A stretch of 64,000 nt of DNA, taken from contig CAMPDV010000141.1 of the NCBI GenBank assembly GCA_946699065.1, forward strand, positions 248,001 through 312,000. The letters run 5' to 3'. Made by a program: the position numbers and the translations under genes. The notes below the pieces were generated by a model. That model was not told the DNA's origin. It searched no databases and was given only the letters and a program-made list of their open reading frames with translations. Positions 1-59,787 of this stretch are shown in pieces (the first letter of the stretch is position 1; every line of letters begins with the position of its first letter). The DNA comes from Loxodes magnus (lineage: Eukaryota > Ciliophora > Karyorelictea > Loxodida > Loxodidae).

Positions 1-3000
1 AATCATAACTTCCCGATACGATGAACTCTGAATCACTGGATATAGCCACAGATGATACAGAATATTTGTGACCACTCATGGTCTTACAGGTACCTGTCTT
101 GACGTCCCATAGTCTCACCGTATAATCATAACTGCCCGATACGATGAACTCTGAATCACTGGATATAGCCACAGCAGATACATAACTAGTGTGACCACTC
201 ATGCTCTTACAGGTACCTGTCTTGACATCCCATAGTCTCACCGTCTAATCATCACTTCCCGATACGATGAACTCTGAATCACGGGATATAGCCACAGATA
301 ATACATAACTAGTGTGACCACTCATGGTCTTACAGGTACCTGTCTTGACGTCCCATAGTCTCACCGTATAATCATAACTTCCCGATACGATGAACTCTGA
401 ATCACTGGATATAGCCACAGATAATACATAACTAGTGTGACCACTCATTGTCTTACAGGTACCTGTCTTGACGTCCCATAGTCTCACCGTATAATCATAA
501 CTGCCCGATACGATGAACTCTGAATCACTGGATATAGCCACAGATAATACATAACTAGTGTGACCACTCATTGTCTTACAGGTACCTGTCTTGACGTCCC
601 ATAGTCTCACCGTCTAATCATAACTTCCCGATACGATGAACTCTGAATCACTGGATATAGCCACAGATAATACATAACTAGTGTGACCACTCATGGTCTT
701 ACAGGTACCTGTCTTGACGTCCCATAGTCTCACCGTATAATCTCCACTGCCCGATACGATGAACTCTGAATCACTGGATATAGCCACAGCATATAATAAC
801 TAGTGTGACCACTCATGGTCTTACAGGTACCTGTCTTGACGTCCCATAGTCTCACCGTCTAATCATAACTTGCCGATACGATGAACTCTGAATCACTGGA
901 TATAGCCACAGATAATACATAACTAGTGTGACCACTCATGGTCTTACAGGTACCTGTCTTGACGTCCCATAGTCTCACCGTCTAATCATAACTTCCCGAT
1001 ACGATGAACTCTGAATCACTGGATATAGCCACAGCAGATACATAACTAGTGTGACCACTCATGGTCTTACAGGTACCTGTCTTGACGTCCCATAGTCTCA
1101 CCGTATAATCTGCACTTCCCGATACGATGAACTCTGAATCACTGGATATAGCCACAGATAATACATAACTAGTGTGACCACTCATTGTCTTACAGGTACC
1201 TGTCTTGACGTCCCATAGTCTCACCGTCTAATCATAACTTCCCGATACGATGAACTCTGAATCACTGGATATAGCCACAGATAATACATAACTAGTGTGA
1301 CCACTCATGGTCTTACAGGTACCTGTCTTGACGTCCCATAGTCTCACCGTATAATCATAACTTCCCGATACGATGAACTCTGAATCACTGGATATAGCCA
1401 CAGCATATACATAACTAGTGTGACCACTCATGGTCTTACAGGTACCTGTCTTGACGTCCCATAGTCTCACCGTATAATCTCCACTGCCCGATACGATGAA
1501 CTCTGAATCACTGGATATAGCCACAGCATATACATAACTAGTGTGACCACTCATGGTCTTACAGGTACCTGTCTTGACGTCCCATAGTCTCACCGTCTAA
1601 TCATAACTTGCCGATACGATGAACTCTGAATCACTGGATATAGCCACAGATAATACATAACTAGTGTGACCACTCATGGTCTTACAGGTACCTGTCTTGA
1701 CGTCCCATAGTCTCACCGTCTAATCATAACTTGCCGATACGATGAACTCTGAATCACTGGATATAGCCACAGATAATACATAACTAGTGTGACCACTCAT
1801 TGTCTTACAGGTACCTGTCTTGACGTCCCATAGTCTCACCGTCTAATCATAACTTCCCGATACGATGAACTCTGAATCACTGGATATAGCCACAGATAAT
1901 ACATAACTAGTGTGACCACTCATTGTCTTACAGGTACCTGTCTTGACGTCCCATAGTCTCACCGTCTAATCATAACTTCCCGATACGATGAACTCTGAAT
2001 CACTGGATATAGCCACAGATAATACATAACTAGTGTGACCACTCATTGTCTTACAGGTACCTGTCTTGACGTCCCATAGTCTCACCGTCTAATCATAACT
2101 TCCCGATACGATGAACTCTGAATCACTGGATATAGCCACAGCAGATACATAACTAGTGTGACCACTCATGGTCTTACAGGTACCTGTCTTGACGTCCCAT
2201 AGTCTCACCGTATAATCATAACTTCCCGATACGATGAACTCTGAATCACTGGATATAGCCACAGCATATACATAACTAGTGTGACCACTCATGGTCTTAC
2301 AGGTACCTGTCTTGACGTCCCATAGTCTCACCGTATAATCTCCACTGCCCGATACGATGAACTCTGAATCACTGGATATAGCCACAGCATATACATAACT
2401 AGTGTGACCACTCATGGTCTTACAGGTACCTGTCTTGACGTCCCATAGTCTCACCGTCTAATCATAACTTGCCGATACGATGAACTCTGAATCACTGGAT
2501 ATAGCCACAGCATATACATAACTAGTGTGACCACTCATGGTCTTACAGGTACCTGTCTTGACGTCCCATAGTCTCACCGTCTAATCATAACTTCCCGATA
2601 CGATGAACTCTGAATCACTGGATATAGCCACAGATAATACATAACTAGTGTGACCACTCATGGTCTTACAGGTACCTGTCTTGACGTCCCATAGTCTCAC
2701 CGTCTAATCATAACTTCCCGATACGATGAACTCTGAATCACTGGATATAGCCACAGATAATACATAACTAGTGTGACCACTCATTGTCTTACAGGTACCT
2801 GTCTTGACGTCCCATAGTCTCACCGTCTAATCATAACTTCCCGATACGATGAACTCTGAATCACGGGATATAGCCACAGATAATACATAACTAGTGTGAC
2901 CACTCATGGTCTTACAGGTACCTGTCTTGACGTCCCATAGTCTCACCGTCTAATCATAACTTCCCGATACGATGAACTCTGAATCACTGGATATAGCCAC

Positions 3001-6000
3001 AGATGATACAGAATATTTGTGACCACTCATGGTCTTACAGGTACCTGTCTTGACGTCCCATAGTCTCACCGTATAATCATAACTGCCCGATACGATGAAC
3101 TCTGAATCACTGGATATAGCCACAGCAGATACATAACTAGTGTGACCACTCATGCTCTTACAGGTACCTGTCTTGACATCCCATAGTCTCACCGTCTAAT
3201 CATCACTTCCCGATACGATGAACTCTGAATCACTGGATATAGCCACAGATAATACATAACTAGTGTGACCACTCATGGTCTTACAGGTACCTGTCTTGAC
3301 GTCCCATAGTCTCACCGTCTAATCATAACTTCCCGATACGATGAACTCTGAATCACTGGATATAGCCACAGATGATACAGAATATTTGTGACCACTCATG
3401 GTCTTACAGGTACCTGTCTTGACGTCCCATAGTCTCACCGTATAATCTCCACTGCCCGATACGATGAACTCTGAATCACTGGATATAGCCACAGCAGATA
3501 CATAACTAGTGTGACCACTCATGCTCTTACAGGTACCTGTCTTGACATCCCATAGTCTCACCGTCTAATCATCACTTCCCGATACGATGAACTCTGAATC
3601 ACTGGATATAGCCACAGATAATACATAACTAGTGTGACCACTCATTGTCTTACAGGTACCTGTCTTGACGTCCCATAGTCTCACCGTCTAATCATAACTT
3701 CCCGATACGATGAACTCTGAATCACTGGATATAGCCACAGCAGATACATAACTAGTGTGACCACTCATGGTCTTACAGGTACCTGTCTTGACGTCCCATA
3801 GTCTCACCGTATAATCATAACTGCCCGATACGATGAACTCTGAATCACTGGATATAGCCACAGATAATACATAACTAGTGTGACCACTCATTGTCTTACA
3901 GGTACCTGTCTTGACGTCCCATAGTCTCACCGTCTAATCATAACTTCCCGATACGATGAACTCTGAATCACTGGATATAGCCACAGATAATACATAACTA
4001 GTGTGACCACTCATGGTCTTACAGGTACCTGTCTTGACGTCCCATAGTCTCACCGTATAATCATAACTTCCCGATACGATGAACTCTGAATCACTGGATA
4101 TAGCCACAGATAATACATAACTAGTGTGACCACTCATTGTCTTACAGGTACCTGTCTTGACGTCCCATAGTCTCACCGTCTAATCATAACTTCCCGATAC
4201 GATGAACTCTGAATCACTGGATATAGCCACAGATGATACAGAATATTTGTGACCACTCATGGTCTTACAGGTACCTGTCTTGACGTCCCATAGTCTCACC
4301 GTATAATCTCCACTGCCCGATACGATGAACTCTGAATCACTGGATATAGCCACAGCATATACATAACTAGTGTGACCACTCATGGTCTTACAGGTACCTG
4401 TCTTGACGTCCCATAGTCTCACCGTATAATCTCCACTGCCCGATACGATGAACTCTGAATCACTGGATATAGCCACAGCATATACATAACTAGTGTGACC
4501 ACTCATGGTCTTACAGGTACCTGTCTTGACGTCCCATAGTCTCACCGTCTAATCATAACTTGCCGATACGATGAACTCTGAATCACTGGATATAGCCACA
4601 GATAATACATAACTAGTGTGACCACTCATGGTCTTACAGGTACCTGTCTTGACGTCCCATAGTCTCACCGTCTAATCATAACTTGCCGATACGATGAACT
4701 CTGAATCACTGGATATAGCCACAGATAATACATAACTAGTGTGACCACTCATTGTCTTACAGGTACCTGTCTTGACGTCCCATAGTCTCACCGTCTAATC
4801 ATAACTTCCCGATACGATGAACTCTGAATCACTGGATATAGCCACAGATAATACATAACTAGTGTGACCACTCATTGTCTTACAGGTACCTGTCTTGACG
4901 TCCCATAGTCTCACCGTCTAATCATAACTTCCCGATACGATGAACTCTGAATCACTGGATATAGCCACAGATAATACATAACTAGTGTGACCACTCATTG
5001 TCTTACAGGTACCTGTCTTGACGTCCCATAGTCTCACCGTCTAATCATAACTTCCCGATACGATGAACTCTGAATCACTGGATATAGCCACAGCAGATAC
5101 ATAACTAGTGTGACCACTCATTGTCTTACAGGTACCTGTCTTGACGTCCCATAGTCTCACCGTCTAATCATAACTTCCCGATACGATGAACTCTGAATCA
5201 CTGGATATAGCCACAGCAGATACATAACTAGTGTGACCACTCATTGTCTTACAGGTACCTGTCTTGACGTCCCATAGTCTCACCGTCTAATCATAACTTC
5301 CCGATACGATGAACTCTGAATCACTGGATATAGCCACAGATAATACATAACTAGTGTGACCACTCATTGTCTTACAGGTACCTGTCTTGACGTCCCATAG
5401 TCTCACCGTATAATCATAACTTCCCGATACGATGAACTCTGAATCACTGGATATAGCCACAGATAATACATAACTAGTGTGACCACTCATGGTCTTACAG
5501 GTACCTGTCTTGACGTCCCATAGTCTCACCGTCTAATCATAACTGCCCGATACGATGAACTCTGAATCACTGGATATAGCCACAGCTAATACATAACTAG
5601 TGTGACCACTCATTGTCTTACAGGTACCTGTCTTGACGTCCCATAGTCTCACCGTCTAATCATAACTTCCCGATACGATGAACTCTGAATCACTGGATAT
5701 AGCCACAGATAATACATAACTAGTGTGACCACTCATGGTCTTACAGGTACCTGTCTTGACGTCCCATAGTCTCACCGTATAATCTCCACTGCCCGATACG
5801 ATGAACTCTGAATCACTGGATATAGCCACAGCATATACATAACTAGTGTGACCACTCATGGTCTTACAGGTACCTGTCTTGACGTCCCATAGTCTCACCG
5901 TCTAATCATAACTTGCCGATACGATGAACTCTGAATCACTGGATATAGCCACAGATAATACATAACTAGTGTGACCACTCATTGTCTTACAGGTACCTGT

Positions 6001-9000
6001 CTTGACGTCCCATAGTCTCACCGTCTAATCATAACTTCCCGATACGATGAACTCTGAATCACTGGATATAGCCACAGCAGATACATAACTAGTGTGACCA
6101 CTCATGGTCTTACAGGTACCTGTCTTGACGTCCCATAGTCTCACCGTATAATCTGCACTTCCCGATACGATGAACTCTGAATCACTGGATATAGCCACAG
6201 ATAATACATAACTAGTGTGACCACTCATTGTCTTACAGGTACCTGTCTTGACGTCCCATAGTCTCACCGTCTAATCATAACTTCCCGATACGATGAACTC
6301 TGAATCACTGGATATAGCCACAGCATATACATAACTAGTGTGACCACTCATGGTCTTACAGGTACCTGTCTTGACGTCCCATAGTCTCACCGTATAATCT
6401 CCACTGCCCGATACGATGAACTCTGAATCACTGGATATAGCCACAGCATATACATAACTAGTGTGACCACTCATGGTCTTACAGGTACCTGTCTTGACGT
6501 CCCATAGTCTCACCGTCTAATCATAACTTGCCGATACGATGAACTCTGAATCACTGGATATAGCCACAGATAATACATAACTAGTGTGACCACTCATGGT
6601 CTTACAGGTACCTGTCTTGACGTCCCATAGTCTCACCGTCTAATCATAACTTGCCGATACGATGAACTCTGAATCACTGGATATAGCCACAGATAATACA
6701 TAACTAGTGTGACCACTCATTGTCTTACAGGTACCTGTCTTGACGTCCCATAGTCTCACCGTCTAATCATAACTTCCCGATACGATGAACTCTGAATCAC
6801 TGGATATAGCCACAGATAATACATAACTAGTGTGACCACTCATTGTCTTACAGGTACCTGTCTTGACGTCCCATAGTCTCACCGTCTAATCATAACTTCC
6901 CGATACGATGAACTCTGAATCACTGGATATAGCCACAGATAATACATAACTAGTGTGACCACTCATTGTCTTACAGGTACCTGTCTTGACGTCCCATAGT
7001 CTCACCGTATAATCATAACTTCCCGATACGATGAACTCTGAATCACTGGATATAGCCACAGCAGATACATAACTAGTGTGACCACTCATGGTCTTACAGG
7101 TACCTGTCTTGACGTCCCATAGTCTCACCGTCTAATCATAACTTGCCGATACGATGAACTCTGAATCACTGGATATAGCCACAGCATATACATAACTAGT
7201 GTGACCACTCATGGTCTTACAGGTACCTGTCTTGACGTCCCATAGTCTCACCGTATAATCTCCACTGCCCGATACGATGAACTCTGAATCACTGGATATA
7301 GCCACAGCATATACATAACTAGTGTGACCACTCATGGTCTTACAGGTACCTGTCTTGACGTCCCATAGTCTCACCGTCTAATCATAACTTGCCGATACGA
7401 TGAACTCTGAATCACTGGATATAGCCACAGCATATACATAACTAGTGTGACCACTCATGGTCTTACAGGTACCTGTCTTGACGTCCCATAGTCTCACCGT
7501 CTAATCATAACTTCCCGATACGATGAACTCTGAATCACTGGATATAGCCACAGATGATACAGAATATTTGTGACCACTCATGGTCTTACAGGTACCTGTC
7601 TTGACGTCCCATAGTCTCACCGTATAATCATAACTTCCCGATACGATGAACTCTGAATCACTGGATATAGCCACAGCAGATACATAACTAGTGTGACCAC
7701 TCATGGTCTTACAGGTACCTGTCTTGACGTCCCATAGTCTACCCGTCTCATCTCTACTTCCCGATACGATGAACTCTGAATCACGGGATATAGCCACAGA
7801 TAATACATAACTAGTGTGACCACTCATGGTCTTACAGGTACCTGTCTTGACGTCCCATAGTCTCACCGTCTAATCATAACTTCCCGATACGATGAACTCT
7901 GAATCACTGGATATAGCCACAGATGATACAGAATATTTGTGACCACTCATGGTCTTACAGGTACCTGTCTTGACGTCCCATAGTCTCACCGTATAATCTC
8001 CACTGCCCGATACGATGAACTCTGAATCACTGGATATAGCCACAGCAGATACATAACTAGTGTGACCACTCATGCTCTTACAGGTACCTGTCTTGACATC
8101 CCATAGTCTCACCGTCTAATCATCACTTCCCGATACGATGAACTCTGAATCACTGGATATAGCCACAGATAATACATAACTAGTGTGACCACTCATTGTC
8201 TTACAGGTACCTGTCTTGACGTCCCATAGTCTCACCGTCTAATCATAACTTCCCGATACGATGAACTCTGAATCACTGGATATAGCCACAGCAGATACAT
8301 AACTAGTGTGACCACTCATGGTCTTACAGGTACCTGTCTTGACGTCCCATAGTCTCACCGTATAATCATAACTGCCCGATACGATGAACTCTGAATCACT
8401 GGATATAGCCACAGATAATACATAACTAGTGTGACCACTCATTGTCTTACAGGTACCTGTCTTGACGTCCCATAGTCTCACCGTCTAATCATAACTTCCC
8501 GATACGATGAACTCTGAATCACTGGATATAGCCACAGATAATACATAACTAGTGTGACCACTCATGGTCTTACAGGTACCTGTCTTGACGTCCCATAGTC
8601 TCACCGTATAATCATAACTTCCCGATACGATGAACTCTGAATCACTGGATATAGCCACAGATAATACATAACTAGTGTGACCACTCATTGTCTTACAGGT
8701 ACCTGTCTTGACGTCCCATAGTCTCACCGTCTAATCATAACTTCCCGATACGATGAACTCTGAATCACTGGATATAGCCACAGCAGATACATAACTAGTG
8801 TGACCACTCATTGTCTTACAGGTACCTGTCTTGACGTCCCATAGTCTCACCGTCTAATCATAACTTCCCGATACGATGAACTCTGAATCACTGGATATAG
8901 CCACAGCAGATACATAACTAGTGTGACCACTCATTGTCTTACAGGTACCTGTCTTGACGTCCCATAGTCTCACCGTCTAATCATAACTTCCCGATACGAT

Positions 9001-11912
9001 GAACTCTGAATCACTGGATATAGCCACAGATAATACATAACTAGTGTGACCACTCATTGTCTTACAGGTACCTGTCTTGACGTCCCATAGTCTCACCGTA
9101 TAATCATAACTTCCCGATACGATGAACTCTGAATCACTGGATATAGCCACAGATAATACATAACTAGTGTGACCACTCATGGTCTTACAGGTACCTGTCT
9201 TGACGTCCCATAGTCTCACCGTATAATCATAACTTCCCGATACGATGAACTCTGAATCACTGGATATAGCCACAGATAATACATAACTAGTGTGACCACT
9301 CATTGTCTTACAGGTACCTGTCTTGACGTCCCATAGTCTCACCGTCTAATCATAACTTCCCGATACGATGAACTCTGAATCACTGGATATAGCCACAGCA
9401 TATACATAACTAGTGTGACCACTCATGGTCTTACAGGTACCTGTCTTGACGTCCCATAGTCTCACCGCATTATCATAACTTCCCGATACGATGAACTCTG
9501 AATCACTGGATATAGCCACAGATAATACATAACTAGTGTGACCACTCATGGTCTTACAGGTACCTGACTTGACGTCCCATAGTCTACCCGTCTCATCATA
9601 ACTTCCCGATACGATGAACTCTGAATCACTGGATATAGCCACAGATAATACATAACTAGTGTGACCACTCATGGTCTTACAGGTACCTGTCTTGACGTCC
9701 CATAGTCTCACCGTCTAATCATAACTTCCCGATACGATGAACTCTGAATCACTGGATATAGCCACAGATAATACATAACTAGTGTGACCACTCATTGTCT
9801 TACAGGTACCTGTCTTGACGTCCCATAGTCTCACCGTCTAATCATAACTTCCCGATACGATGAACTCTGAATCACTGGATATAGCCACAGATAATACATA
9901 ACTAGTGTGACCACTCATGGTCTTACAGGTACCTGTCTTGACGTCCCATAGTCTCACCGTATAATCATAACTTCCCGATACGATGAACTCTGAATCACTG
10001 GATATAGCCACAGATGATACAGAATATTTGTGACCACTCATGGTCTTACAGGTACCTGTCTTGACGTCCCATAGTCTCACCGTATAATCATAACTTCCCG
10101 ATACGATGAACTCTGAATCACTGGATATAGCCACAGCAGATACATAACTAGTGTGACCACTCATGGTCTTACAGGTACCTGTCTTGACGTCCCATAGTCT
10201 CACCGTATAATCATAACTGCCCGATACGATGAACTCTGAATCACTGGATATAGCCACAGATAATACATAACTAGTGTGACCACTCATTGTCTTACAGGTA
10301 CCTGTCTTGACGTCCCATAGTCTCACCGTCTAATCATAACTTGCCGATACGATGAACTCTGAATCACTGGATATAGCCACAGATAATACATAACTAGTGT
10401 GACCACTCATGGTCTTACAGGTACCTGTCTTGACGTCCCATAGTCTCACCGCATTATCATAACTTCCCGATACGATGAACTCTGAATCACTGGATATAGC
10501 CACAGCAGATACATAACTAGTGTGACCACTCATGGTCTTACAGGTACCTGTCTTGACGTCCCATAGTCTCACCGTCTAATCATAACTTCCCGATACGATG
10601 AACTCTGAATCACTGGATATAGCCACAGCAGATACATAACTAGTGTGACCACTCATGGTCTTACAGGTACCTGTCTTGACGTCCCATAGTCTCACCGTAT
10701 AATCTGCACTTCCCGATACGATGAACTCTGAATCACTGGATATAGCCACAGATAATACATAACTAGTGTGACCACTCATGGTCTTACAGGTACCTGTCTT
10801 GACGTCCCATAGTCTCACCGTATAATCTCCACTGCCCGATACGATGAACTCTGAATCACTGGATATAGCCACAGCATATACATAACTAGTGTGACCACTC
10901 ATGGTCTTACAGGTACCTGTCTTGACGTCCCATAGTCTCACCGTCTAATCATAACTTGCCGATACGATGAACTCTGAATCACTGGATATAGCCACAGATA
11001 ATACATAACTAGTGTGACCACTCATGGTCTTACAGGTACCTGTCTTGACGTCCCATAGTCTCACCGTCTAATCATAACTTCCCGATACGATGAACTCTGA
11101 ATCACTGGATATAGCCACAGATAATACATAACTAGTGTGACCACTCATGGTCTTACAGGTACCTGTCTTGACGTCCCATAGTCTCACCGTCTAATCATAA
11201 CTTCCCGATACGATGAACTCTGAATCACTGGATATAGCCACAGCAGATACATAACTAGTGTGACCACTCATGGTCTTACAGGTACCTGTCTTGACGTCCC
11301 ATAGTCTACCCGTCTCATCTCTACTTCCCGATACGATGAACTCTGAATCACTGGATATAGCCACAGATGATACATAATGTCTGTGACAACTCATGGTCTT
11401 ACAGGTACCTGTCTTGACGTCCCATAGTCTCACCGTATAATCTGCACTTCCCAATACGATGAACTCTGAATCACTGGATATAGCCACAGATTATACATAA
11501 CTAATGTGACCACTCATGGTCTTACAGGTACCTGTCTTGACGTCCCATAGTCTCACCATCTAATCATAACTTCCCAATACGATGAACTCTGAATCACTGG
11601 ATATAGCCACAGATGATACATAATGTAAGTGACCACTCATGGTCTTACAGGTACCTGTCTTGACGTCCCATAGTCTCACCATCTAATCATAACTTCCCGA
11701 TACGATGAACTCTGAATCACTGGATATAGCCACAGCAGATACATAACTAGTGTGACCACTCATGGTCTTACAGGTACCTGTCTTGACGTCCCATAGTCTC
11801 ACCGTATAATCTCCACTGCCCGATACGATGAACTCTGAATCACTGGATATAGCCACAGCATATACATAACTAGTGTGACCACTCATGGTCTTACAGGTAC
11901 CTGTATTGACTT
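1..11912 (-). CDS. Giant WD40-repeat protein, partial (3' end outside window)
   Basis: The gene is read right to left and runs off the left edge. Each 123-bp unit encodes a 41-residue WD40 blade with [10 protein letters not shown], an SGH dipeptide site, [11 protein letters not shown] and SGS, so about 97 blades lie in this window, enough for many seven-blade propellers. In about half the units a TAG codon stands where the others have Tyr (YDYTV versus YD-TAG-TV), which fits TAG = Gln. WD40 propellers are protein-interaction platforms; the partner is unknown. Units at the 5' edge (11300-11900) are more diverged, as in other arrays homogenised by unequal exchange. Variation is confined to a few codons (HTSYV followed by LS, SA or YA; GS-Y/G/A/R-D; YTV, QTV, ETG or NAV). 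One unit near 794 lacks one base, which shifts the frame of everything downstream. The N-terminus is unresolved: a Lys-rich reading continues in frame to about 12339, where an ATG occurs, but the start cannot be fixed. Confidence 0.85.
1..11912 (-). repeat. Tandem array of 123-bp units (~97 copies)
   Basis: The units are head to tail with almost invariant length and near identity; each carries GGTACC once. Larger blocks are also duplicated: 3190-4180 recurs about 4551 bp (37 units) to the right, 5041-5530 recurs 3690 bp (30 units) to the right, and 1228-1593 recurs 861 bp (7 units) to the right. This points to recent unequal crossing-over or gene conversion. It is the coding array of the WD40 gene, not satellite DNA. 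Confidence 0.95.
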
Positions 11913-14040: not shown

Positions 14041-14480
14041 TCTTGTCTATTCTTTAAAGAGTCTATATACATTTACCTGCATTAAAGTTCCATATGTTGG
14101 TTGTAGAGCCCGATGAACCAGAAAACAGAACACTTGAATCGTTACTAAGTTGAATATTACTTATAGTAGTTGTATGACCTTCCAGAATTCGAATAGCATA
14201 TATCCAATTCGAAATCCCATATTTTAATTAATTTGTCACAAGAATCGGAAATAATAATCTTTATTGTCCAGTGATAATATTACAGATTCAATCCAAAACT
14301 AGATCCCTGAAAGAGTTTTGAATAAACTAACCAGTTGATAAAGGTCAGAATTTAATCATTTATCTCCACTTCCCGATATAATTTATTTCTTGGCACTGGC
14401 TATTGCTACCGATAAAACTCAATCAGTATGTCCAATCAAAGTTCTCATGCAGTTTCCTTATTTTCACTTAATTATCTTAG
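14041..14480 (-). pseudogene. Decayed WD40-repeat gene fragment
   Basis: Reading leftward, at least three blades are recognisable: a piece with LIGHTD, a TGA, then VLSVAIAS and IISGSGDK; a piece with IKFWPLSTG; and pieces with IIISDSCDKLIKIWDFE, ILEGHTTTISNIQ and SGSSGSTTNIW. The Trp of the WD-equivalent dipeptide in IKFWPL and the Trp after GHTD are both TGA, where WD40 proteins commonly carry Trp. The blades are in different frames, with at least three shifts not explained by plausible introns, and the blades are far more diverged than those of the array at 1-11912. It is probably a broken relative of that gene, lying on the same strand 2 kb upstream of it. Confidence 0.65.
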
Positions 14481-36977: not shown

Positions 36978-38700
36978 ATGGAAAACATTAACCTAGAGTA
37001 TACAATAAATGATGTAGAAAAGCTTTTGGAAGATAATGGAGCTAGTCCAAGCTCTTAAGCTAGATTAAGGATATGATAGTGATAAACACTGGTGCCAAGT
37101 TATAAATTTTTAAATTAATTAGAGATAATAGGGAGAGGAGGATCTGCTATTGTCTATAGAATTGAAATTGAAGGTAAAGATTATGCTCTTAAGATAATAA
37201 CTCAGAAAAGAGGAATCACTTAGAAGTAGCAAATCAAAGATTTTTACTTAGAATGCTAGTCACTTTTAACTGTTAGTCATCCAAACGTTTTAAGACTTAA
37301 AGGAGTGTCCTTAGATACAAGTGACGAAGATGATTGTCTCTTAAGTACTATCACTAAATATCAATAGAAGGGAAATCTCTTCGAGCTGATATAAAGCAAA
37401 TAGCTTTTCAATAATGTTTAGGATAAAAAGGAAAAATTTTAAAAGAAGCTAACTTTGCTTTAGGAAATAGCAGAAGGATTGAAAGCTATTCATCAAGCAA
37501 ACCTAGTTCACAGGGATATGAAATCCTAGAACATTTTGCTAAACAAGCATGACAAGCCTAAAATAGCAGATTTAGGTCTTACTCGGAATTTTATCTAAAG
37601 CTTTACATCTAAAGGCAGAGGAACTATTTACTGAATGGCGCCCGAATAATTTGATTTCAAATTTTATTAATAAAGCGACATTTGATCCCTAGCTTGTATA
37701 GCTGTAGAAATCTATAGCGAAAAGCTACACTGGCCATAAGACTAAAGCTAAGAAAATATTAAAAAAATGATACTAATTTTTAAAAAAATTCCGGATTTTA
37801 GTGATGATATAACATAAAATAAAAGACTGGGAGATTTACTAAAATAATGCTTTAGTTGAAATTGAGAAGAAAGACCGAATATTAAAGAAGTTATATAAAT
37901 TCTGTCTGAAATTAAGTAAGAAAGCTTATTTAATTCTGGTGAAGACCAAAACTAAAAACAGCTTCAAGAAAATAAATAAAGATATATGTAATAATAGGTA
38001 TAGTAAATAGAGCTTGCTAACTAGCCTGATTCCACCTAAATAAATGTTAGATATGAAGAGAGTTAAAAAGAGCAATCTTGTTAAAAGTCTGGAGAGTAAG
38101 TAGTAGATTAAGACTTTTTCAATGGATAGTAGTGAAACGGAAGCCTGGTAGAGAGTTAAAATTTGGACACTTCTCAGATAAATTAAAAGCTCATTGCAAA
38201 TCAATAGAATCAGTAAGAAAAGAATCCATTTAAATGTGAAAGATGCCAATAATACTGAGATATCTAGTAATATAAGATATAACTGAACTGTGATTGTATA
38301 TTATGTTTAAACTGCCTTTAAAGATGATTAAAAGACTTAATAGACGAGGAAAAATACTAAATATAAGAGTTAATTTGTCCTTTTAAGCATTGCAACATAC
38401 CTTTAGAATGGAATAAAAATACATAAACTTGCGATAACTTCAAAATAATCGAAGCTAATTTAGACAAAAAATACGTCGAAAAAATAGAGAATTTAAGAAT
38501 GAGAAATAACTTAGGAGTAAAGGAATGTCCTCAGTGCAATAGATACTTTTAAAAAGATAATAAAGAATGAGAATTCAATAAAAAATATTCCTAAGTATGT
38601 ATTATTTGCTGCAAAAGCTAAATATAACAACTATTAAATAAAGCATATACTTTGAAAGGTTTTCAAGGCAACTGCGTTCTTTGGTAACTCTCTTTTAAGA
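36978..38700 (+). CDS. Protein kinase with C-terminal RING/IBR-like zinc fingers
   Basis: The kinase domain spans residues about 48-310. The glycine loop is GRGGSAIV (52), the ATP-binding Lys is in YALKII (72), the catalytic loop is HRDMKSQN (178), the metal site is DLG (198; DFG in most kinases), and GTIY-W-MAPE, SDIWSLACIAVE and ERPNIKEV follow. All catalytic residues are present, so it should be active as a Ser/Thr or dual-specificity kinase. The Trp residues at 219, 236, 294 and 296 are all TGA. A Gln-rich linker leads to a Cys-rich region from residue 420: CERC, CDCILCLNC and CPFKHC, then CPQC and CIICC, resembling a RING plus IBR pair. The 3' end is uncertain: splicing a 16-nt GTA...AAG segment (38684-38699) would create a TGA stop at 38700, giving 568 residues; without it the frame stays open. 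Confidence 0.85.
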
Positions 38701-40514
38701 TTAAAATATTTATATTTATGTCTTTTAAACCTTTAGTGATAACTACTTCAATCTTATTTGTCTAACTTAAGTTTGCTAGTATTCTAACATCTCATTAACT
38801 TACTTCTATTAAACTTCTTTTTTATACCATCGAAATAAAAATGATAAGAGCATGTATAAATAAAGTAAATATAAGACAACACTATGCTTATGCTATATTC
38901 TGGATAGATATGAACTCCTAAGAATATATTCGTACTATTTATTAATTAAACCTAATTTAAATTGAAAGAACTTAATCATACTTAAATAGTGGGCTATCGT
39001 TATCAGTTTGCATTATACCAATAGAATAAACTTTAGTCATCATCTCATGGTTAATAAAAGAAAAAAAAGATGCAAATGAGATAAAAATGAAAAGCATTGA
39101 ATAAGATAACTTTATTAAGTCTACTGAAGATGGTAAATTAAATATAAGTATGTATATATTTAAGCATTATATCTTCACTAGACTTTAATATTAATGAAGA
39201 TGCTTATAATGTTGGAAATTAATATTAACAGCTTTTAAAACTTTTAACCATTTAATGAGCTCTAAAAGTAAAATCATCTACTTATAAATTTCAAGCTAAA
39301 AAGCTAGTTCTTAAACATTCTTGGGAACCTTTATAATCTATTCAACTAAAAAAGGATTTTAGGAAAGCTTTATTCTAATTTTGGTTATAATTATAATCTA
39401 AATATACCTATTTTACTACTAGCTTTCATATAGAAATGTAAATAATACCTAAAAGCATAAATAGACTTACTAGCATATATATTCATCTTTCTAAAGCTTC
39501 TTATTCTAAATTAATATATTCAATATACACCTTCAAGCTACCTTATAGCCTATTATTAAGACTTGCTTGACTAAGTATTTTATAAGCCAATAGATTCATA
39601 GAAAATGGGTAGTTAAACTATAAACGGTTTCGTTTGATAAGGACTATATTTCGAAAGTTTTAGCTAAATTTATCTATTAGAATTAAGATTTTGAAAGCCA
39701 TATCAGCTGTAGATATATAGCATCATAAAGATAGTATCTAAGCTTTACTATATTTGTGAAAGGTAAGCTTTCTAGACGATTTAGATCTCTTCTATTGTAT
39801 ATTAAGTTAGGTAGTTTCTTTCTTAATTATCAATCTTAGTTAAAATATCCCTTGAATATAAAACTTTATTCAAGTCATAGAAGAAATTAGCAAGTATTAA
39901 TATTCCTATTAATAGATATATCTGAAAGAGTAGACAATGCTATAGTAGTAAAATCAAGCTTATACTATTTAGAGTTTTAGACAGTTTGATTCTATAATTT
40001 TGGAGTGTTAAAGCTAGCTTAGTAAAAATAATCTAACTCAGATAAAATAAATTTTATGGCTTATGTTTGTTTCACTTTCAGAAGGCTTTTTGCTAGCATA
40101 CTAAATTACATATTTAGTGGTAAAAATATTTTGAATGCACTGCTTCAAATTAACTTTCTGTCTTTTAAACTGCTCATAACCTATAGCTGAATCTTCTAGA
40201 TCTATTAGATATTATAATCACCATATAAAATACCTATTAGGTTTGGCTTATATCTGACTTTATAGCTTCTATTTATGGACTTAATTATACTTTTAAAAGC
40301 TAATTTATCTTGCTACCTACTTAGATTATTTTAGCCTTATAATATACCTATTATGTATATATTAATTCATAATTAAGAAGCTTAAATAGTAATTAGCAGT
40401 ATGTAAGCTTTTGATATTTATAAGTATAAAGAGCGTTGCAACTGGCTAATATAATATCATTAGGATTTGATTAGGTAACCCTTTTTCAGATCAAGATAAT
40501 TAAAATTTAATAAA
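38701..40514. other. Intergenic AT-rich DNA
   Basis: 1.8 kb with no domain or repeat recognised. If the last kinase intron is wrong, the kinase reading frame would extend into this stretch. Confidence 0.35.
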
Positions 40515-40850
40515 TGAATTGGATTATAGAGCCCGTAGCACTCTCGTTGGTGCGAAGCTCTTTAAATTAATTTTATTTAATGTCGAACAATTTTTTTATG
40601 TCTCTCTATCCTTGTTTTCTCTTCCTGCAGTACGTCCCTGATATTTTTCCTTCCAAAGCATAGGATGCAATAAGCGATTACGGGTACATTTCCCCGACCT
40701 ATGATGAAGAAAGTTTCCTCCTGGCATTCAGAGTTCTCCAGCTTGTCACATCTTCTTTCTCTTCCTCCGATTTATCCTCCGTCCGCGCTCATTTTTTTGT
40801 TATCTTGCTGGGCCTCCAAGCAGCATCTGAAGGAAAAGGCTTTCCACCCT
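40515..40850 (+). mobile_element. Diverged hairpin-headed element, copy F
   Basis: The head TTATAGAGCCCGTAGCACTC...GGTGCGAAGCTCTTTAAA at 40522 is close to copies A-C. The tail CGATTACGGGTACATTTCCC then CGACCTATGATGAAGA matches one body module, but the rest of the body (about 40560-40640 and beyond 40710) is unrelated or strongly diverged. Confidence 0.55.
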
Positions 40851-40880
40851 ATTTAAATTATATACATAGTAAAGATACAA

Positions 40881-41425
40881 ATACTTTTAGTTATCCAAGC
40901 ACTATAGAAAAAGTATAAGAAGCAGATTAAATAGAAAGCTTAATAGATTAAGGGATTTTAGATTTGACAAAGCTATATAATAATCAAAAGACTAATACTA
41001 CTTTACTAGTTATATCCCATGACTGTATTAATGCTTTCTATGAGTCAATCGTAACTAAAAAAGAGTGGATAAATAAAAGAAGGCTTATTCCTTTTAGTAT
41101 AAATGTATTATAATATTTGATGATTCATTTTATACGAAAGCTAGCTTTTGATATCTGATTGCTTCACTTGGAAGTTTTATAGTCAGCAGTTTAATTTTTA
41201 ATTATTTAAGTATGCTAATGTTCTTTCTCTATTCTAAAATAGAATACTTTTTCTGTCGTTGTGTACTGTTTTTTAAATATTGTTGAATCTAGACATATTC
41301 TGAAATGATTTATGATCTATCTAGTTGTAGTATATTATAACACTCCATCTGATAAAGGTAGATTTTAAGCATGTTAATAAGATTCTAGCAGGTTATAGTT
41401 TCAAAACTTCGAAACTTCTGAGTGA
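40881..41425 (+). CDS. Possible protein-coding exon, hydrophobic C-terminal half
   Basis: One frame reads NTFSYPSTIEKVQEADQI, LVISHDCINAFYESI and EWINKRRLIPFSINVLQ, then alternating hydrophobic stretches, and meets TGA at 41423-41425. The start is not found and no family is recognised. The code makes open frames uninformative, so support is weak. Confidence 0.25.
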
Positions 41426-42342
41426 ACTGCCTTAAACTTGTCTTTAAGATACAGTAAGATTAGAGAAGTTAGGATCCTTTAGTTATGATTCTCTAAGCCT
41501 TATATATTTCCTTTTTTTGTTGAAGTGTGTATCTTCATATGTTCTCAAACTAGCTTAATACCAAACTCATTAAACTCAAAAGTTTAAGTTGAGAGATAAT
41601 GCTTTTATATCCAAAGAGTGTGCAACTAACTTCAAAGTAAATGAAAAAAGCATTACTAATTAGTCTAAGCTAAATGGTTAGCTCATGCTAGCATTTAAAA
41701 AGGCTAACTTAATGCTATTCTTAACTTCCATTTAGAATAAAAAAGTAAGAAGTTGTTTCTATTTTGGCTTTTAGATTCTAAGCATTGTTTAATAAAAGTA
41801 TCAAGTAAGAGAGATAGAGAAAGTATGGTTTGCTTATTATAAAAAGAAAGAGTTTCAATCAGAGAATTAATAACCAAGGATAAAAGCTATAAGTACAATC
41901 CAAACTATACTAAGCATTTAATAGCTTCTAGAAAGGTTCTTTAAACTTAAAAAGTGATATTAAAGCTAAGCTGCTATTAGTTATAAGCTTTATTTAAGAT
42001 CCTAAAATTTAAGTAATTAGCCTTTATATTTATTAAGCACTTGAAATTAATAAATAGATACATCCAGAAAATTTTAACTAAAGTAGACTTTAGTCTTCTC
42101 ACAGCTGATTATAAATAAATAGAGAATTGCATTATAGTAATTATAAGACTCTTTGGAATATTGTTATATGAGACTAACTAAAGGAAAGAGAATAATCATT
42201 TGATAAAATATCATCTCCAAGTTTCCTTTTTTTTTGATGAGTTTCATACTGGAAGATGAGAATTCATTTCGTTTAGAGGAGAAAAGAAAAGAAAAGATAC
42301 TTTGCGTTTTTTTTATTTTCTAGAATTAAAATTAAACAATAA
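41426..42342. other. Intergenic AT-rich DNA
   Basis: No feature recognised. Confidence 0.4.
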
Positions 42343-42415
42343 TGGAGAACTTGGGTATCGATCCCAATGCCTCTCGCATGCTAAGCGAGCGCTCTACCAT
42401 TTGAGCTAGATCCCC
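42343..42415 (-). tRNA. tRNA-Ala (AGC)
   Basis: 73 nt. Acceptor GGGGATC faces GTTCTCC with one U-U mismatch; D arm AGCTCAAATGGTAGAGC; anticodon arm CTCGC-TTAGCAT-GCGAG with anticodon AGC; T arm TGGGATCGATACCCA; discriminator A. T-rich sequence follows. Confidence 0.92.
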
Positions 42416-43310
42416 TTTATATAATATACATTTCGCTTATATATAAACAATAAAACATAAAAAAGAGAAAACAAGAAGGTAAGCTCGTTTTGATTAAGTA
42501 GGAAAAACGAAAATAGCAACAAGATCTTATACCCCAAAATCTAGAATCGATTCATTAATAGAGAAATAAAAAGCAAGCAGACTATCTATCCTTTCTAATT
42601 ATTCGATAAGAGAAAATAGTATAAACATACAGAAGATTAAACATTTTTTATATTAAGGAAATTCTATTCCTTAAAGTGCGTAAAACTGAGATTAATTATT
42701 TATCAGAATATTGGAACTAATTTATGCAAAATCTTAGTTTTATTAGATGAGCTTAAAAATAAAAAAAGCATATTCTGTTTATTTTAAACCAATTTTGTAA
42801 ATGAACTTCACTTAAGAAATCAAAATGCTATGTTTATCCAAATTTCGAAAACTAACTTTACTCTATTAGAACTGGAAGTTTCCTAGTATTGTTTTAAGAC
42901 TGCTAAATTAATTTTTAGGCACAGAAAATTTAAAATCCCTTAGATTTATATTATAATTTTAAAGACACACAATCAAAATTTGAAGCAGTGAAAATAGCAA
43001 AGCAAGGACTATTAATAAAGGTAGTCTAATGATTAAAGGAAGGGAAAGTAACTTAATTTGTTTAATCTAAAGAGTGTACTTATTATCAATGATAGGCTCA
43101 CTATTTAAATCCAATTCTACTTAGTCTGCCTCTCTAGAGGACATAGCAGTCTTCAAAACTCAAACTTAATAAATTAAAAAGTATAAAATCCTGGTATTTT
43201 CACAAGGTTCTAGAACTGAAAATTGAAAGGGTAATAATTAAGTAAAAAGCTTAGCTTTTATTATGATGATAAGGATATATATATTTAATTGAATAAATAG
43301 TTATAATATA
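42416..43310. other. Intergenic AT-rich DNA
   Basis: Holds the upstream regions of the divergent tRNA-Ala and RING/PLAC8 genes. No motif recognised. Confidence 0.4.
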
Positions 43311-44435
43311 ATGGAAGAGTAAGATTAATAACCTTATGCATGCTAAATTTGCTTTTCAGAATATAACTCGAGCAAATACATTCCTAAATTACTACCTTGT
43401 GGACATAGCTTTTGTTTAGTGTGCTTGAAAGATATATTTAACTCTTAAAACAAGCAAATAAAATGTCCTTTTTGTAAAATGACTTTTGGTTCTTTTCCTG
43501 ATTAAATTCCTTCAGTGTACTAAATGATTAACAAATAGAATTAGAGCAAGTAGGATAAAGATTAAGACGATAGAAAAGCGATATAAAAGTGTCCGAAGCA
43601 TAAACTTAATTAAGAAGTTTGGTGTCTAAAAGACTCCAAAGAAATATGTATAAGATGCTTATTGAGTGGCAAGCATAAAAATCACGAATCTATAGATATT
43701 TAACTCTATAGATCACAGAATTTTTAGAAAAAGCTAGAACTTAAATAAGAGGAAAATAAATTTGAAAATGAATGAAATATTGGATTTTTTTAATGCTTCA
43801 AAGATTGCAAATAAGGATTTAATGTTGGATGTCCACATTACAGCTTATATATGTCAGAAAAAACATTTTATTATCTAAAGCATGAATAGAACACTATGCA
43901 AAAATGATTAACATGTCTTTTCCCTTGTATTTGATATAGTGTAAATAGATATAAAATTAGGAAAATTTTGAAAATAAAGGGATCAATTTGTAATGATTTT
44001 CTTGCCTAATGCTTTTGCCATTGATGTGCAATTTATCAAGAAAGAGAGGAAGCTTACCAATAGTATACGAAAAATAACCATTAGAATCATTTATAATACG
44101 TCTTCGATGGGAAGTGGAAGGTCGGATTACTTGAGTGCTTCAAAACTCCAAGAAGACTTTGAACTTACCTTTTATTTCCGTATATTTCAAGTGTCTGCAG
44201 AGCATAAACAGTTTCATTTATGTTGCAAGAAGAACGCTAATGTTTACAGTACTGCTTGATATGTTTTTTTCCGATTCCTTGCTTCTGTATAAGTCGATAT
44301 AAAGTAAGAAACCACTTCCAAATTTAAGGATCATTTTGCTAGGATTTTATCACTTAATGCTTCTGTCATTGTTGTGCATCAGTTCAAGAATTTGAAGAAG
44401 TCTTTAGAGTTTACGGAGAATATTACTACAAATGA
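43311..44435 (+). CDS. RING / B-box / double PLAC8 protein
   Basis: Single exon, 374 residues, ATG 43311 to TGA 44433-44435. RING finger at 11-55 (C11-x2-C14, C30-x-H32, C35-x2-C38, C52-x2-C55). B-box at 94-125 (C94-x2-H97, C105, C113-x2-C116, H122-x2-H125). PLAC8 domain at about 155-248: W155, the Cys-rich core, RYKIRKILKIKGSICNDF and QCFCHWCAIYQEREE. A second PLAC8 copy at about 262-370: WKVGLLECF, RYKVRNHFQIQGSFCQDF, QCFCHCCASVQEFEEV; its first half has lost several cysteines. Trp codons 155, 199, 208 and 238 are TGA. RING plus B-box is the TRIM start of E3 ligases. PLAC8 (Cys-rich) domains are found in membrane-associated regulators of cell size and metal handling. I know of no described TRIM-PLAC8 fusion, but could not search. 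Confidence 0.88.
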
Positions 44436-58203: not shown

Positions 58204-59787
58204 TCAAGCTGGCTGTAAATTTTCATTTTCCATAAGTTTGTATTTTAGATTGTTTTCCATACTCTACTGCTACCTATTCCTTAAGAAAGCTATAAAACCT
58301 AGTAAAATCAAGAAAATAACTACATAGATTATAATTTTTAAAATTGATCCATCATCATTATCGGATAAATCGGTTGCTTCTGACGATTGTTCAGAAGAAG
58401 TTTCAGTTGTTGTTTCTGTAGGTTTATCAGCAGGCTATTCAGCTGGTTTTTCTGTCGTTGTTGTCTCAGCAGGCTATTCAGTTAATGTTTCAGTTGTTGT
58501 TACTTCAGCAGGCTATTCAGCTGGTGTCGTTTCTGCTGGTGTCTCTTCAGCTGGTGTTGGTGTTGTTTCAACTGGTGTTGGTTGAGCTTCACCAGGTGTC
58601 GTTTCAGCTGGTTATGTTTCAGCTGGTGTTACTTCAGCAGGCTATTCAGTTGGCGTTGTTTCCGCAGGCTATTCAGCTGGTTATGTTTCAGCTGTTGTTA
58701 CTTCAGCAGGCTATTCAGTTGGTGTTGTTTCAGCAGGCTATTCAGCTGGTTATGTTTCAGCTGGTTATGTTTCAGCTGTTGTTACTTCAGCAGGCTATTC
58801 AGTTGGTGTTGTTTCAGCAGGCTATTCAGCTGGTTATGTTTCAGCTGGTTATGTTTCAGCTGGTGTTACTTCAGCAGGCTATTCAGTTGGCGTTGTTTCC
58901 GCAGGCTATTCAGCAGGCTATTCAGCTGGTTATGTTTCAGCTGGTTATGTTTCAGCTGGTGTTACTTCAGCAGGCTATTCAGTTGGCGTTGTTTCCGCAG
59001 GCTATTCAGCAGGCTATTCAGCTGGTTATGTTTCAGCTGGTTATGTTTCAGCTGTTGTTACTTCAGCAGGCTATTCAGTTGGTGTTGTTTCAGCAGGCTA
59101 TTCAGCTGGTGTCGTTTCAGCTGGTGTTACTTCAGCAGGCTATTCAGCTGGTGTCGTTTCCGCTGTTGTTACTTCAGCAGGCTATTCAGTTGGTGTTGTT
59201 TCAGCAGGCTATTCAGCTGGTTATGTTTCAGCTGGTTATGTTTCAGCTGGTGTTACTTCAGCAGGCTATTCAGTTGGTGTTGTTTCCGCAGGCTATTCAG
59301 CTGGTGTCGTTTCAGCTGTTGTTACTTCAGCTGGTGTTACTTCAGCAGGCTATTCAGTTGGTGTTGTTTCCGCAGGCTATTCAGCTGGTGTCGTTTCAGC
59401 TGTTGTTACTTCAGCTGGTGTTACTTCAGCAGGCTATTCAGTTGGTGTTGTTTCAGCAGGCTATTCAGCTGGTGTCGTTTCAGCTGTTGTTACTTCAGCT
59501 GGTGTTACTTCAGCAGGCTATTCAGTTGGTGTTGTTTCCGCAGGCTATTCAGCTGGTTATGTTTCAACTGTTGTTACTTCAGCAGGCTATTCAGTTGGTG
59601 TTGTTTCCGCAGGCTATTCAGCTGGTTATGTTTCAACTGTTGTTACTTCAGCAGGCTATTCAGTTGGTGTTGTTTCAGCAGGCTATTCAGTTGGTGTCGT
59701 TTCAACTGGCGTTGTCGTAGTTTCACTTGAGGTATCTTGTGCAAACGATAAAGCTATCAAAGCTAAAATAATCACAGTTTTATTCAT
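58204..59787 (-). CDS. Mucin-like repeat surface protein, single membrane anchor
   Basis: ATG 59787 to TGA 58206-58204, 527 residues in one frame. Residues 1-17 (MNKTVIILALIALSFAQ) form a signal peptide. Residues about 20-440 are made of permuted short repeats such as TPTEQPAEVTPAETQPAE, rich in Thr, Pro and Glu. The Gln codons are TAG in EQP and TAA in ETQP, so under the standard code there is no ORF. A transition SSEQSSEATDLSDNDDGS leads to a membrane span ILKIIIYVVIFLILLGF (about 481-501) and a ~26-residue cytosolic tail ending ENLQPA. It is a type I surface protein, probably O-glycosylated, of the cell coat type; the repeats suggest length polymorphism. The two long + strand ORFs opposite it (420 and 382 codons, Leu/Gln- and Cys/Phe-rich) are antisense shadows. 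Confidence 0.88.

Follow-up and report, generated by a model that had tools for sequence, protein, structure and literature searches.

Reading frames with in-frame TAA, TAG and TGA

The stretch of DNA considered here, called the window throughout, comprises 64,000 nucleotides of the Loxodes magnus contig CAMPDV010000141.1 (positions 248,001-312,000, forward strand). Its region 36978-44435 holds two genes, one for a protein kinase and one for a protein with a RING domain and two PLAC8 domains. A first-pass annotation made from the letters of the window had claimed that TAA, TAG and TGA all stand in frame in this region, and both reading frames confirm this. The question that follows concerns the meaning of these codons. 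Our conclusion, held with near certainty, is that the window belongs to the macronuclear genome of L. magnus, that this genome uses the code of NCBI table 27, in which UAA and UAG (together UAR, or TAR in DNA) stand for Gln and UGA is Trp inside genes and the only stop at their ends, and that both window genes are ordinary genes rather than pseudogenes. The finding is already known, for the code is in print for this species. The features of the two genes are the following.

36978-38759, plus strand: protein kinase gene, a kinase domain followed by a Cys-rich part, read with TAR as Gln and TGA as Trp
37632-37634, plus strand: in-frame TGA of GTIY-TGA-MAPE; Trp in the EGFR, CTR1 and EphA2 alignments, Tyr in the other 74 sampled genome kinases
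37683-37685, plus strand: in-frame TGA of SDI-TGA-SL; the column has 37 TGG and 28 TGA among 75 genome kinases
37857-37859 and 37863-37865, plus strand: in-frame TGA pair of CFS-TGA-N-TGA, kinase frame
43311-44435, plus strand: RING/double PLAC8 gene, 374 residues and a TGA stop at 44433-44435 (codon 375)
43773-43775, plus strand: TGA at residue 155, where PLAC8 copy 1 has its first, conserved Trp; the codon is TGG in copy 2
43905-43907, 43932-43934 and 44022-44024, plus strand: TGA codons of PLAC8 copy 1 opposite Cys codons (residues 199, 208 and 238)

The kinase frame has 594 codons, including 10 TGA, 3 TGG and 57 TAR, and matches Pfam PF00069 with an E value of 5.2e-44, its domain aligning over 274 columns of the profile with zero gaps. 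The Cys-rich part behind the domain has a weak RING match (E 0.032), and the frame is free of TGA between 38571 and 39194, which leaves the 3' end of the gene unplaced. As a query for homologues the kinase returned 783 matches, of which the top one has 29% identity across 46% of the query, and no close relative appeared among the 120 matches listed. The RING/PLAC8 gene carries internal TGA at residues 155, 199, 208, 238 and 284, and its stop TGA comes 91 codons after the last of these; between RING and PLAC8 lies a B-box-like stretch, judged by eye only. Homology searches returned just two weak matches for the whole protein, which extend over 22% and 38% of it, and zero matches for PLAC8 copy 1 as query.

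The meaning of TGA was examined within the window by substituting ten residues for it in turn and rescoring each protein against Pfam. Trp gave the highest score in the kinase (152.5 bits, followed by Tyr 150.2, Phe 147.0 and Cys 138.9) and also in PLAC8 (74.0, followed by Tyr 73.7, Leu 72.9, Phe 72.8 and Cys 68.9). The first-pass annotation had further proposed that the kinase TGA codons fall at places where kinases carry Trp, and the letters that it cited are indeed present. For SDI-TGA-SL the column mixes TGG and TGA among the genome kinases; the place is Trp in four of the five PDB alignments shown and Tyr in CTR1, and in 134 homologue kinase domains it is Tyr in 100 and Trp in 18. For GTIY-TGA-MAPE the support is weak: the place is Trp in all five PDB alignments shown (EGFR, CTR1 and, three times, EphA2), though Tyr in 107 and Trp in just 2 of the 134 homologue domains, and Tyr in 74 of the 75 kinases of the genome alignment described below. 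The CFS-TGA-N-TGA places are likewise weak examples, since neither is a Trp column in that alignment. The codon of W155, claimed to be TGA opposite a TGG in the second PLAC8 copy, proved to be so: in an alignment of the two copies it pairs with W269. A third piece of the early argument, IKF-TGA-PL in a WD40 remnant, is correct in its letters (near 14356, minus strand) and carries no evidential weight, since the WD40 matches next to it are weak and fall into two different frames. This early evidence from the window weakly pointed in the right direction without being decisive. Outside two G+C-richer repeat regions the window has a G+C content of 23-31% per 2-kb bin, with 14.5% in the last bin, and by an estimate from base composition a random frame would carry about as many TGA. 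Hence the mere presence of TGA proves nothing, and it is the placement of the codon across the genome that does.

Placement of TGA in kinase and PLAC8 domains of the genome

Kinase domains were collected from 88 of the 136 genome matches listed, to which the window's own was added; dropping sequences more than 90% identical reduced these 89 domains to 75, with 84 TGA and 108 TGG among 19,221 codons and at least one TGA in 49 of the domains. Three Trp columns hold 62 of the 84 TGA, where random placement would put 0.74; these columns were chosen from the same table and are also the ones that TGG occupies. With the residues of the other sequences in the same columns as the reference, the kinase TGA codons score 403.7 bits for Trp, 79.4 for Phe, -31.5 for Tyr and -231.9 for Cys, and none of the 84 lies in a column led by Cys. 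With the window kinase left out, the ratio of TGA to TGG is 61:75 on the three Trp columns, compared with 19:32 off them (Fisher p 0.41); the share of TGA being alike in both, stray TGA are not overrepresented. The codon behaves as if it were disfavoured in the genome kinases: for six other pairs of codons ending in A or G, the A-ending member takes 68-85% in the 74 kinases outside the window, whereas TGA makes up 43% (80 of 187) of TGA plus TGG. In the two window genes the corresponding fraction is 15 of 20 (Fisher p 0.008, a small sample and one comparison), as expected where the codon is not disfavoured; conserved genes may avoid UGA while these two do not.

This relative richness in TGA, together with a TGA frequency near the random rate estimated for an AT-rich frame, is what could be expected if both window genes were pseudogenes in a genome with an ordinary ciliate code, having TAR as Gln and TGA only as a stop, so that their TGA codons were nonsense mutations. 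How, then, could a decayed gene have kept a kinase domain that runs without a gap over its whole alignment? According to 300 runs of a simple drift model, some 700 substitutions (median) are needed before 10 TGA have accumulated, and with assumed ratios of indels to substitutions of 0.05-0.15 this number implies 35-106 indels. Moreover, conserved Trp are written TGA in dozens of other genes of the genome, and table 27 has already been published for the species. We consider that the pseudogene explanation has practically no chance of being correct; the ungapped domain, the drift simulation and the genome-wide placement of TGA rule it out.

The PLAC8 family provides a second case in favor of Trp. 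A search of the genome gave 107 PLAC8 matches, from which 40 domains were fetched and combined with the two of the window, 40 of these 42 being kept. The first Trp column of the kept set initially contained 26 TGG, a single TGA (that of the window), 3 Phe and 10 gaps, the gap rows being matches that begin at profile position 2 to 5. The 30 bases ahead of 20 of the 31 matches with such late starts (31 by hand count) were therefore inspected, and all 20 have TGA at column 1, at the predicted distance of one to four codons upstream of the match start; these matches include close paralogs and do not represent 20 independent events. Since all 10 gap rows are among the 20, the column in the kept set resolves into 26 TGG, 11 TGA and 3 Phe. 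Reading UGA as Trp is thus confirmed in two protein families across the genome, by the kinase columns and by the first PLAC8 column. PLAC8 matches also occur in pairs recurring nine times, every ~2153 bp, at C1690:10674-29394 (C-numbers designate contigs of this assembly).

Several observations nevertheless weigh against the Trp assignment. In the window-only scores of both proteins Trp leads only just. When set against the profile of the genome, the four scored TGA of the window kinase favor Tyr (3.4) over Trp (-5.0), and the five PLAC8 TGA of the window favor Cys (3.4) over Trp (-2.1). In PLAC8 copy 1, the TGA at residues 199, 208 and 238 pair with Cys codons (TGC or TGT) of copy 2; the TGA at residue 284 pairs with TTT of the sister copy. 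Over all 27 scored PLAC8 TGA, Tyr leads the column score and at least six residues rank ahead of Trp; beyond column 1 the family did not favor Trp. Finally, the column method applied to the kinases reads TAA and TAG as Lys first rather than Gln, and it misreads the control codon AAA as Arg. Having failed its own AAA control, this inference of TAR is set aside, and the assignment of TAR to Gln rests on eRF1, discussed below, and on the published code.

The three TGA opposite Cys codons, and the Cys-leaning score of the window's PLAC8 codons, would suit a reading of UGA as Cys in the manner of Euplotes, whether throughout the genome or only in certain genes like PLAC8. The same family speaks to the contrary elsewhere, for the 22 scored PLAC8 TGA outside the window give -14.6 for Cys and the conserved first Trp is TGA in every late-starting match fetched, while the kinase TGA codons score far below zero for Cys and avoid Cys-led columns altogether. 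We therefore regard decoding as Cys as very improbable and retain Trp; for the Cys-opposite codons of copy 1 the only explanation at hand is that Cys and Trp codons are near neighbours.

Two repeat regions complete the description of the window. Positions 1-11910, from the very first base on, are taken up by 96.8 tandem copies of a unit of 123 bp with 95% matches; their G+C content is ~43%, the window being AT-rich. The minus strand of this array encodes near-identical WD40-like repeats, with 91 TGG and no internal TGA in 3745 codons. The second region, 58427-59713, consists of G+C-richer tandem repeats with units of 27 bp and 84 bp, and in reading it gives a weak match to the Pfam pentapeptide-repeat model.

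The release factor and the supply of tRNA-Trp

A search with PF03463 found three matches in the genome, one on C2 and two on C196. The two on C196 (L125 and L126, positions 1456-2766 within each) are full eRF1 genes of 436 codons, nearly identical and ~35 kb apart. They contain 20 and 21 TAR and zero internal TGA, and each has 4 TGG, by which all its Trp are written. Residues 9-430 of the L126 protein align with the PDB eRF1 1dt9_A, which we take to be the human protein, at 530 bits, and Gln residues that match a Gln of 1dt9_A, those of GGQ, GTLQGN, FNQAIEL and SQEGSQF among them, are written TAR in both genes. The early proposal that TAR is Gln is therefore borne out by invariant Gln of eRF1, that of GGQ included. 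Both genes end at TGA, behind which a second in-frame TGA stands at a distance of three codons and, in L125, a third at five; the companion proposal, that TGA but neither TAA nor TAG also acts as a stop, accordingly holds in three genes, these two and the PLAC8 gene of the window. The euplotid code (table 10) likewise has UGA as sense, but it reads UGA as Cys and keeps UAR as stops; for this genome it is ruled out by the kinase columns, eRF1 and the first PLAC8 column. At the positions of stop recognition, taken from a list in PMC12153298 and located by reading the alignment, L126 differs from 1dt9_A by E55A, T58R, S60Q, S70A and Y125F, and L125 is identical to L126 there.

Which tRNA, then, reads UGA? 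A pattern that describes the 3' half of tRNA-Trp and admits either CCA or UCA as anticodon has 125 matches in the genome, against one for the reversed control pattern; the 100 matches listed are all CCA and identical in their letters. As many as 115 of the 125 lie on two contigs, C67 and C148, where nearly all form the arrays below, listed with a tRNA gene of the window that served as a control of copy number.

C67:482293-491213: tRNA-Trp(CCA) array, 48 copies with a period of 187 bp (ARAGORN on C67:481700-491690)
C148:155434-173067: tRNA-Trp(CCA) array, 66 copies with a period of 241 bp (ARAGORN on C148:155001-175000, 33 + 33 called, and letter count)
42343-42415 of the window, minus strand: tRNA-Ala(AGC), copy-number control

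A lone tRNA-Trp copy in opposite orientation adjoins the C148 array, and a run of T follows the array copies. One copy on C148 straddles the boundary between the two segments given to ARAGORN and is included through the letter count. Each array has one type of tRNA-Trp, with A27.C43 in one type and U27.C43 in the other. Rfam alignments of four copies, two per type, show 27-43 as the sole non-standard pair, and this mispair leaves an anticodon stem of 4 bp. Decoding of UGA by a tRNA-Trp with a 4-bp stem has already been identified in Loxodes according to passages of PMC13092985, where the 27-43 mispair is linked to UGA reading, with reporter work in other species. The simplest solution would have been a dedicated cognate tRNA-Trp(UCA) in place of the 4-bp-stem CCA form, such as occurs in ciliate mitochondria (as mentioned in PMC4967479). 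Restricted to UCA, however, the pattern has zero matches in the genome, although a UCA tRNA of another backbone would escape it, and both CCA types carry the mispair tied to UGA reading; a dedicated UCA tRNA thus seems unlikely to be the decoder here. The check that the first-pass annotation had recommended, for a UCA-decoding tRNA-Trp or a near-cognate equivalent, has turned out favorably through CCA tRNAs that are near-cognate and have an anticodon stem of 4 bp.

It would be tempting to view the amplification of tRNA-Trp as a special adaptation, but high copy number and tandem repetition are also features of other tRNAs in this genome, and in view of the copies of tRNA-Ala and the repeats of tRNA-Lys we reject this interpretation. 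The first 72 bases of the tRNA-Ala(AGC) gene have 177 exact genome copies, 27 of the places listed forming a tandem array with a 287-bp period at C3:2233812-2241345. A tandem array of tRNA-Lys(TTT) lies at C103:669738-672972 (7 copies, 527 bp). What alone stands out, in a comparison with the isoacceptor tRNA-Ala(AGC) only, is the concentration of the Trp copies in two arrays. These arrays may be unreported: we found no mention of them in the literature searched, the main text of PMC11441545 does not contain the word tRNA, and a preprint on the Loxodes tRNA may describe them. With position 43 other than C, the CCA pattern has zero matches in the genome. It is conceivable, though we put it forward tentatively, that practically the whole supply of tRNA-Trp is of the near-cognate 4-bp-stem CCA form, with neither a canonical 5-bp CCA nor a UCA form, and is housed in two homogenised arrays of 48 and 66 copies, each with one of the two types (A27.C43 and U27.C43).

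Comparison with other codes and implications

The karyorelict code named in the first-pass annotation is supported: it is published for L. magnus as table 27, kinases and PLAC8 domains have UGA as Trp, and eRF1 has TAR as Gln and TGA as stop. Table 27 covers Loxodes and Parduczia with the same assignments (PMC11441545, in the passages stating it for L. magnus), and we found no difference from it. The gene-prediction section of PMC11441545 describes UGA in Loxodes as the only stop, doubling as Trp where it lies at a sufficient distance upstream of the poly(A) tail, and reports short 3' untranslated regions and a depletion of coding UGA in the ~20 codons before the stop. The frequency of TGA per 1000 codons is 4.2 in the 74 Loxodes genome kinases versus 1.2 in the coding sequence of Parduczia (a figure given in PMC4967479), gene set and species both being different.

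All three stops are also sense in the Condylostoma code (table 28), which differs in that termination occurs also at UAA and UAG (PMC4967479), whereas in this genome TGA closes each of the three genes whose end was seen and UGA is published as the only stop. The nonstop code of Blastocrithidia likewise has UGA as Trp through a 4-bp-stem tRNA-Trp(CCA), and its eRF1 is changed at Ser70 (according to passages of PMC12153298), the position that is Ala here; but in Blastocrithidia UAR is Glu and UAA the stop, while here TAR is Gln and UGA the stop. Amoebophrya sp. ex Karlodinium veneficum similarly has three stops inside genes and a 4-bp-stem tRNA-Trp(CCA), with no UGA-cognate tRNA according to the passages on its tRNAs in PMC12005148. 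This organism is a dinoflagellate relative whose eRF1 stop-recognition motifs are identical to those of other Amoebophrya (PMC12005148, passages on eRF1), whereas several of these positions are changed in the eRF1 studied here relative to the PDB eRF1.

In mechanistic terms, UAA and UAG specify Gln, and UGA specifies Trp within genes and is the sole stop at gene ends, where nearness of the poly(A) tail, a step taken from the literature, would tip it toward termination. From the anatomy of the components and from published work we infer that UGA decoding would depend on the near-cognate tRNA-Trp with its 4-bp stem, a weakened eRF1 and the distance to poly(A). Should the tRNA-Trp supply be constituted as tentatively proposed above, the same unusual tRNA would serve both UGG and UGA, and the copy number of the arrays could tune UGA readthrough against an eRF1 with S70A, E55A and Y125F. 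What the present analysis adds to the published code is an independent genome-wide test of UGA as Trp in two protein families; and the location of the decoding tRNA in two large arrays makes a dosage hypothesis testable. In codes that lack a dedicated stop codon, termination can depend on context, and the window constitutes a clear and checkable instance of such a code.

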